Positions 49,390 through 49,779 of a DNA stretch of 64,000 bases are shown here, in pieces. The stretch lies in the NCBI RefSeq assembly GCF_001593005.1, contig NZ_LQZQ01000045.1:434001-498000 (forward strand), read 5' to 3'. The translations under genes and the position numbers were made by a program. Numbering within the stretch: position 1 is the stretch's first letter; each line of letters opens with the position of its first letter. The stretch is from Roseivirga ehrenbergii (GTDB lineage: Bacteria; Bacteroidota; Bacteroidia; Cytophagales; Cyclobacteriaceae). The notes below the pieces were generated by a model. That model made no database searches. It saw only the letters and a list, made by a program, of their open reading frames with translations, and was not told the origin of the DNA.

Positions 49390-49423
49390 AAAAAAAGCCC
49401 GACCTTATACAGATCGGGCTTTT
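49390..49423 (-). terminator. Intrinsic terminator 2, between small frame 2 and the tRNA-like array
   Basis: On the minus strand a 12-base stem (AAAAGCCCGATC paired with GGTCGGGCTTTT, one G-U) has a 7-base loop and is followed by further T residues. It lies upstream of all the larger genes of the operon, so expression of rtcB needs read-through or a further promoter. Confidence 0.85.
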
Positions 49424-49445: not shown

Positions 49446-49565
49446 TCAAGTCATAATTCCCCGATCTTTTTGCAAAAGATATATTTTACCTGCTCCAGAG
49501 TCATAATGACTCAGGTTATCCATAGGTGAGATCCACATGTTTAATCCTTCTATTTTCTTCTGCAT
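49446..49565 (-). CDS. Small frame 2 (39 aa), candidate peptide
   Basis: ATG at 49565 to TGA at 49446. Its middle contains ISPMDNLSHYDS, similar to AQPMEALFGFDS in the preceding small frame (shared pattern P-M-acidic-x-L-x-x-aromatic-D-S). It lies between two intrinsic terminators. The paralogy with frame 1 is the main reason to think it is translated. No function is known. Confidence 0.45.
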   Translation of the reverse strand: MQKKIEGLNMWISPMDNLSHYDSGAGKIYLLQKDRGIMT

Positions 49566-49583
49566 ATTCAAACCTTTTTAAAA

Positions 49584-49612
49584 CAAAAAACCCGAACCAA
49601 ATGGCCCGGGTT
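49584..49612 (-). terminator. Intrinsic terminator 1, after small frame 1
   Basis: On the minus strand a 10-base stem (AACCCGGGCC with GGTTCGGGTT, two G-U) and loop ATTT are followed by TTTT. It is 22 bases beyond the stop of small frame 1, giving a peptide-plus-terminator cassette. Confidence 0.85.
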
Positions 49613-49634
49613 TCGATATTTCGTTGTGTTGAAA

Positions 49635-49730
49635 TTAACGTATATTCCCAAGCCTAATTACATCACTATCAAAGCCAAATAATGCTTCCATTGGCTGTGC
49701 TATAAGGATATGTGAGTAATTGCTTTTCAT
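49635..49730 (-). CDS. Small frame 1 (31 aa), candidate leader peptide
   Basis: ATG at 49730 to TAA at 49635, starting about ten bases after the predicted transcription start, with an A-rich upstream region suited to Bacteroidota translation. The central AQPMEALFGFDS resembles ISPMDNLSHYDS of frame 2. No run of a single regulatory codon is seen, so classical attenuation by starvation for one amino acid is not obvious. Confidence 0.5.
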   Translation of the reverse strand: MKSNYSHILIAQPMEALFGFDSDVIRLGNIR

Positions 49731-49746: not shown

Positions 49747-49779
49747 CAAATGTACTGAAATTGATTTCTGATATCCAAA
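49747..49779 (-). promoter_or_regulatory. Promoter of the tRNA-like array/rtcB region
   Basis: On the minus strand TTTG (49779-49776) and TACATTTG (49754-49747, exact TAnnTTTG) are 21 bases apart, a good Bacteroidota promoter. Transcription should begin near 49740, just before small frame 1. Confidence 0.65.

Follow-up and report, generated by a model that had tools for sequence, protein, structure and literature searches.

The window analysed here is a 64,000-nt stretch of contig NZ_LQZQ01000045.1 (positions 434,001-498,000 of the forward strand) from a marine bacterium, and all coordinates below are window positions. The closest named relatives of the locus are found in Roseivirga species. 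On the minus strand an ADH-like gene (51019-49967; labelled from a reading of its translation only) is followed by a promoter match (49747-49779), a 31-codon leader ORF 1 (MKSNYSHILIAQPMEALFGFDSDVIRLGNIR; 49730-49635), the intrinsic terminator T1 (49614-49587), a 39-codon leader ORF 2 (MQKKIEGLNMWISPMDNLSHYDSGAGKIYLLQKDRGIMT; 49565-49446), the intrinsic terminator T2 (49424-49392) and a tRNA-like array recognized by Rfam covariance matches (49348-48984). Beyond the array lie genes for an SPFH/Band 7 (slipin-like) protein (48667-47567; Pfam PF01145, 117.5 bits), a TPR protein (47377-46853; Pfam TPR families) and the RNA ligase RtcB (46868-45450; Pfam PF01139, 267 bits), and a terminator at the rtcB end (45464-45438). 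A preliminary description of this DNA had proposed two small frames of 31 and 39 codons, each followed by an intrinsic terminator at 49584-49612 and 49390-49423, respectively; both frames and both terminators were recovered, the latter at the slightly different positions given above.

The promoter match reads TTTG-N21-TACATTTG and conforms to the Bacteroidota-type consensus. Within the 7.5 kb scanned, it was the single match to TTTG-N16-22-TAnnTTTG, and its position just ahead of ORF 1 favours the earlier suggestion of attenuation or anti-termination control. The -7 box lies 24 nt upstream of the first ATG, placing a short ORF close behind a promoter as in known attenuators, and at 12/12 genus loci the box starts 21-25 nt before this ATG. 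A consensus scan from the promoter to the end of rtcB returned T1, T2 and the rtcB-end terminator as the only strong minus-strand terminators of the operon. T1 and T2 stand between the leader ORFs and the genes, which is the intrinsic-terminator feature of a ribosome-mediated attenuator.

Two further observations were made at the locus. A small hairpin (49445-49424, minus strand) occupies the space between the ORF 2 stop and T2 and seems to be preserved across the genus alignment; one possible role is to draw the two antiterminator strands close to each other. Across 48667-45450, the TPR and RtcB proteins are 95-96% identical to those of the closest relative (L036), whereas the SPFH protein is only 70% identical, which suggests exchange within the operon.

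Leader frames and terminators among relatives

The SPFH gene was found in 60/390 family, 35/390 order and 26/395 class genomes, in samples that overlap. From the window's family and its surroundings 62 loci were fetched first, and the 57 with enough flanking sequence were used. At least one cassette (a leader frame with its terminator) was present upstream of SPFH-(TPR)-rtcB at 27 of these 57 loci, with both cassettes at 25; frame 1 was found at 27 family loci and frame 2 at 26. Six candidates judged unlikely to be cassettes were set aside (L035 -2081, L078 -2341, L108 -2326, L125 -1431, L140 -872 and L142 -1058), and the frame-1 start of L047 was shifted to an inner ATG. The TPR gene accompanied the cassettes at 23/27 loci and was absent from all 30 cassette-free loci (for example L041, L044, L046 and L072-L079), indicating that the cassettes belong to one branch of the operon. 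In comparison, rtcB was in range at 24/27 loci with cassettes and 26/30 without. The cassette-free SPFH loci must accordingly have another control. Cassettes were also present at more distant loci of the class, flavobacterial ones included.

The leader frames stop 21-32 nt upstream of their terminators. An association rule was defined as an ATG frame of 20-60 codons with its stop 20-32 nt before a terminator stem, and was applied to the region from 2100 to 600 nt ahead of the SPFH gene at the 27 family loci. There, 51/55 terminators satisfied the rule, compared with 16/44 in control DNA from the window's own genome (16 stretches of 20 kb, 320 kb in total), so the arrangement of frame and terminator goes beyond chance.

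The preliminary description had noted that both window peptides carry the pattern P-M-acidic-x-L-x-x-aromatic-D-S and had read the two cassettes as a tandem duplication. While the pattern is present in both window frames, it is not a feature of the family: in frame 1 it is confined to the window (1/27), and in frame 2 it extends to the closest relative alone (2/26). As the motif is not conserved, it was rejected as evidence of duplication. Outside their terminators, the two cassettes of a locus resemble each other about as much as shuffled DNA does (mean z 0.46), and the window peptides align weakly, with 3.4% of 1000 shuffles scoring as high. A duplication is thus weakly supported at best.

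The same description had offered short-lived peptides with functions of their own, each with its own terminator, as an alternative to regulation. The frames are indeed kept across the family, and a histidine near codon 7 of frame 1 is nearly invariant. Against this, non-synonymous codon changes outnumber synonymous ones in most leader pairs between relatives, these pairwise comparisons gave no sign of purifying selection on the peptides, neither leader has a Pfam match, and the frame ends track the terminator arms as set out below. We consider functional peptides very improbable.

Complementarity between frame ends and terminator arms

The last codons of each frame usually copy the 3′ arm of its own terminator, frame 1 that of T1 and frame 2 that of T2, and can therefore pair with the corresponding 5′ arm. 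In the window, GGCTTGGG (49654-49647), which lies between 17 and 10 nt upstream of the stop codon of ORF 1, is able to pair with the T1 5′ arm segment CCCGGGCC (49610-49603). Likewise AGATCGGG (49467-49460), between 19 and 12 nt upstream of the stop codon of ORF 2, can pair with the T2 5′ arm segment CCCGATCT (49418-49411) with neither mismatch nor G-U pair. Across cassettes the elements mostly lie 22 to 2 nt before the stop, and element and arm have changed jointly in individual lineages: AGACCGGG with CCCGGTCT in L035, AAGGCCG with CGGCCTT in L037, and GGCCTGG with CCAGGCC in L103.

The specificity of this pairing was assessed by comparing matched partners with partners swapped between loci and with shuffled upstream sequence. 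For frame 1 the mean duplex energy was -11.23 for matched, -9.77 for swapped and -6.04 for shuffled partners (n = 23, permutation P 0.0005). For frame 2 the corresponding values were -10.3, -8.01 and -6.57 (n = 22), with 0/10,000 permutations as good. Control duplexes at 53 terminators from the window and the 320 kb of genome, a set that includes both cassettes, averaged -6.39 compared to -6.15 after shuffling.

Covariation was examined in an alignment of 25 of the 27 frame-1 cassettes, from which the near-copies L101 and L104 were excluded. In the antiterminator helix 84.5% of cells were paired, and both partners had changed in 3 pairs and 10 cells; its covariation score was reached by 2/500 shuffles and was lost when the partner was slid. 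The T1 stem covaried as well (93.5% of cells paired; both partners changed in 4 pairs and 15 cells). Further pair types did not exceed shuffles in either the antiterminator helix or the T1 stem of this alignment. The frame-2 alignment comprised 12 of 26 cassettes, and since the element has shifted by one base between lineages, frame 2 was judged by the matched and swapped duplexes rather than by pair counts. Elements of frame 2 were weak or misplaced in L047, L050, L087, L088, L099, L101, L103, L105 and L109; in L087, L088 and L109 the best match fell at or past the stop and is doubtful. An antiterminator that overlaps the end of the ORF and excludes the terminator, as attenuators have, is thus present here, although weak in some frame-2 cassettes.

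A model of ribosome position indicated that the element is covered once about 5 codons or fewer separate the ribosomal A site from the stop, a position at which its pairing is lost, and free when the ribosome is 10-12 codons or more upstream of it. With the element free, pairing of the nascent 5′ arm into the ORF end had a mean predicted probability of 0.71 for frame 1 and 0.69 for frame 2, compared with 0.28 and 0.27 in shuffled DNA, and exceeded the shuffled value in 27/27 frame-1 and 26/26 frame-2 cassettes. In the completed RNA at equilibrium, the terminator was predicted to fold with probabilities of 0.74 (T1) and 0.90 (T2) when the element was free, and 0.96 with a ribosome at the stop. 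Equilibrium folding alone did not predict read-through. Because the terminators win at equilibrium, read-through would have to be kinetic, occurring while the polymerase moves. Taken together, end-of-frame elements complementary to the 5′ arm of their own terminator, located where a terminating ribosome would cover them, support the attenuation or anti-termination control first suggested for this locus. Tandem leader-peptide attenuators before an RNA-repair operon are, as judged from the sequence, well supported.

Amino acids of the leaders and tRNAs of the array

Classic attenuator leaders repeat one codon. No run or cluster of a single control codon, of the kind seen in single-amino-acid attenuators of the trp and his type, was found in the leaders here, and adjacent identical residues were no more frequent than in shuffles (1.05 vs 1.27 in frame 1; 2.0 vs 2.02 in frame 2). 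Instead the leaders were rich in different residues. In non-redundant sets (60% identity cut unless stated), the 19 frame-1 leaders contained on average 16.95 distinct residues in 29.6, compared to 15.19 (sd 0.29) in pooled shuffles, and the 20 frame-2 leaders 17.55 in 40.3, compared to 16.37 (sd 0.25).

The boundary between the sensing codons and the last 10 or 11 codons was chosen once the outcome of the ribosome position model was known. With all z values in this section inflated by shared ancestry, the sensing codons of frame 1 held 13.32 distinct residues versus 11.47 in shuffles (z 6.7) and those of frame 2 16.2 versus 14.19 (z 7.0), while the last codons gave z 1.1 and 0.35, respectively. 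When residues were shuffled column by column in the alignment, so that every site retained its composition, the sensing codons still exceeded the control (13.32 vs 12.11 and 16.2 vs 14.47; 0/2000 shuffles as high). Other reading frames of the same stretch gave z of 0.3-3.3, with values of up to 3.4 in some frames of this DNA, and random protein segments (60 sets per length) gave mean z of -0.75 and -0.9, with a highest value of 2.39.

These family tests are post hoc, since the idea arose from the list of family leaders. Two replicate sets, 22 peptides in all, were fetched after the idea had been written down. The order/class set of 10 hand-picked candidate rows, which included the L140 -872 candidate dropped from the family set, gave a diversity z of 3.9. 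The named-genome set of 12 hand-picked rows, which left out loci already used under another number and near-copies of L200 (L194, L202 and L207), gave z 4.3, with the final ten codons also reaching z 2.6. The Aureisphaera galaxeae leader contains all 20 amino acids within 37 residues. In the window each leader includes 17/20 amino acids and the two combined include 19, cysteine being the one missing; taken alone, the window leaders were not unusually diverse (tail p 0.11 and 0.34). The two leaders of a locus have 8-14 amino acids in common.

The array downstream of the leaders is degenerate in the window. Rfam matched tRNA on the minus strand at 49348-49266 (46.9 bits) and 49117-49054 (31.7 bits), and a tRNA-like piece at 49053-48984 scored 26.6 bits, below cut-off; ARAGORN called no tRNA in the window. 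Between T1 and SPFH, ARAGORN called 57 tRNAs at 22/26 cassette loci, all 57 in operon orientation. Amino acids of two-codon boxes accounted for 47 of the 57 (Tyr 12, Gln 9, Asn 7, Cys 6, Lys 6 and others), and five were tRNA-Ile with the anticodon TAT (L033, L037, L038, L043 and L095). AUA is usually read in bacteria by a CAT anticodon modified to lysidine, so the tRNA-Ile(TAT) may be lysidine-independent stand-ins. Separately, at the class-level relatives L134 and L141, 14 and 19 ARAGORN calls flank SPFH and cover most amino acids.

A weak Y-RNA-like fold (YrlA; 32.8 bits, cut-off 69) overlaps the array at 49167-49068 on the minus strand, and as this match spans two tRNA-like pieces, a permuted tRNA-like fold may be present. 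YrlA-type matches of 27-45 bits recur in the operon of relatives, including L170-L173, and with E values of up to 1 allowed, this search also gave matches in 13/14 control genomes. No TROVE/Ro60 gene match was found in the window's genome, and 2/19 genus genomes have one. In G007 and G009 a second YrlA-type match lies near a TROVE gene.

With tRNA-like RNAs directly downstream of the leaders, a T-box-like switch can be envisaged in which a tRNA-like RNA or an uncharged tRNA acts on the leader directly, without leader translation. Searches at the Rfam gathering score returned no T-box or other leader family in the window or in relatives (12 of 24 loci searched), tRNA families being the only matches in both, and a ligand switch would not require reading frames that end at a constant spacing from the element. 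Such an RNA-only switch is highly unlikely.

Ordinary attenuation that senses few tRNAs, such as Gln or Tyr/His/Asn/Asp, with the other codons incidental, deserves more weight. Glutamine is found in both leaders at 19/19 non-redundant loci, histidine in 0.89 of the frame-1 sensing parts, and consecutive His-Tyr-Asp in window frame 2, and the array favours two-codon-box tRNAs, Tyr and Gln foremost. However, this reading leads one to expect neither more distinct residues than in shuffles, whether or not site composition is kept, nor the ordinary frequency of adjacent identical residues. The Tyr/His/Asn/Asp cluster was rejected as sole control, as the tests of diversity indicated a broader range of amino acids, and we regard sensing of few tRNAs as possible but not probable.

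Alternatively, the leaders could be general sensors of translation inhibition, for example by antibiotics, in which any slowing of the ribosome suffices and codon content is neutral. Two precedents are described: the toiL uORF senses several antibiotic classes (PMC12121999), and an Anabaena module responds to elongation inhibitors (PMC10272220). With neutral codons, however, one would not expect more diversity than in shuffles, nor that this surplus is missing from the final codons of the family leaders, and as the sole explanation a general sensor appears doubtful. General translation-inhibition sensing is nevertheless compatible, as an extra input, with the favoured reading, which is that the leaders sense a shortage of nearly any tRNA.

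A proposed gate on an RNA-repair operon and its known counterparts

These results support a model, which we hold to be probable, in which paired ribosome-mediated transcription attenuators in series gate the operon of tRNA-like RNAs, SPFH, TPR and RtcB and would be released by a shortage of nearly any tRNA. RNA polymerase would start just upstream of ORF 1. A ribosome reaching the stop would cover the antiterminator element in the last codons, allowing T1 to fold and end transcription. Should the ribosome instead stall more than about 10 codons short of this point, or fail to load at all, the element would pair with the newly made T1 5′ arm and the polymerase would pass T1. ORF 2 and T2 would repeat the same test, hence both brakes would have to release. 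With most amino acids represented in the leaders, the operon should be released whenever almost any tRNA becomes scarce or is broken, or when elongation is generally blocked. The codon content of the leaders, together with the presence of rtcB and tRNAs in the operon, suggests damaged tRNA as the natural trigger; the released operon would then supply tRNA-like RNAs and a ligase that reseals cleaved tRNA.

A bolder form of this model, whose chances we judge to be about even, is a panoramic tRNA sensor: two leaders in series each spell most amino acids, loss of nearly any single tRNA species would relieve both terminators so that tRNA stand-ins or decoys are made along with RtcB, and it is the spread of codons, not the peptide, that is selected. 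The locus suggests that the ribosome itself may serve as the sensor of tRNA damage, which is relevant to bacteria without the RtcR activator, and it would connect leaders that sample many tRNAs with the tRNA-like arrays and RtcB of Bacteroidota. If true, this would provide a generally applicable principle by which tRNA cleaved through toxins, phage-defence nucleases or antibiotics can be detected, as well as a natural reporter of tRNA damage.

In the trp, his and ilv attenuators, a short leader ORF follows the promoter, an antiterminator lies over the ORF end and a terminator precedes the genes. The arrangement described here is alike in its leader ORF behind a promoter, its antiterminator over the ORF end and its intrinsic terminator before the genes. 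It differs in that two attenuators lie in series, most amino acids are sampled with no control-codon run, and the operon serves RNA repair rather than biosynthesis. Open-access titles and the openings of abstracts, a body of text that leaves most subscription papers uncovered, yielded no leader-peptide attenuation of an rtcB operon and no leader of comparably mixed codon content.

A parallel is found in Pseudomonas aeruginosa, where a leader peptide signals a tRNA CCA-end defect to transcription: the PA5471.1 leader of armZ reports loss of the CCA-adding enzyme, but it is a single leader with two named codons (Gln3 and Phe4) and drives an efflux regulator (PMC13041342). The toiL uORF of Escherichia coli topAI similarly answers many translation stresses with one short ORF, but it acts on translation and Rho-dependent termination rather than on intrinsic terminators, and no tRNA-repair operon is involved (PMC12121999).

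In Salmonella, damaged tRNA induces rtcBA through RtcR, and the rsr-yrlBA-rtcBA operon resembles the present one in its induction by damaged tRNA, which here is a prediction, and in its tRNA-like Y RNA; it differs in relying on a sigma-54 activator that binds tRNA halves, where leader attenuators are proposed here (PMC7790460). The window was compared with this RtcR-type rsr-yrl-rtcBA class on two features only, and it did not resemble the class in either, with no TROVE match in the genome and a Y-RNA-like match below cut-off. The TrcR regulon of Anabaena places a tRNA array (an operon of 26 tRNAs), rtcB and a slipin gene under a single repressor of the RHH type and a common response to translation stress, although its genes are spread over several sites and it belongs to another phylum (PMC10272220). 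It is an independent sign that tRNA array, rtcB and slipin belong together. Compared with these systems, what is new here is the content of the leaders, in which many amino acids are sampled in place of a single control-codon run.
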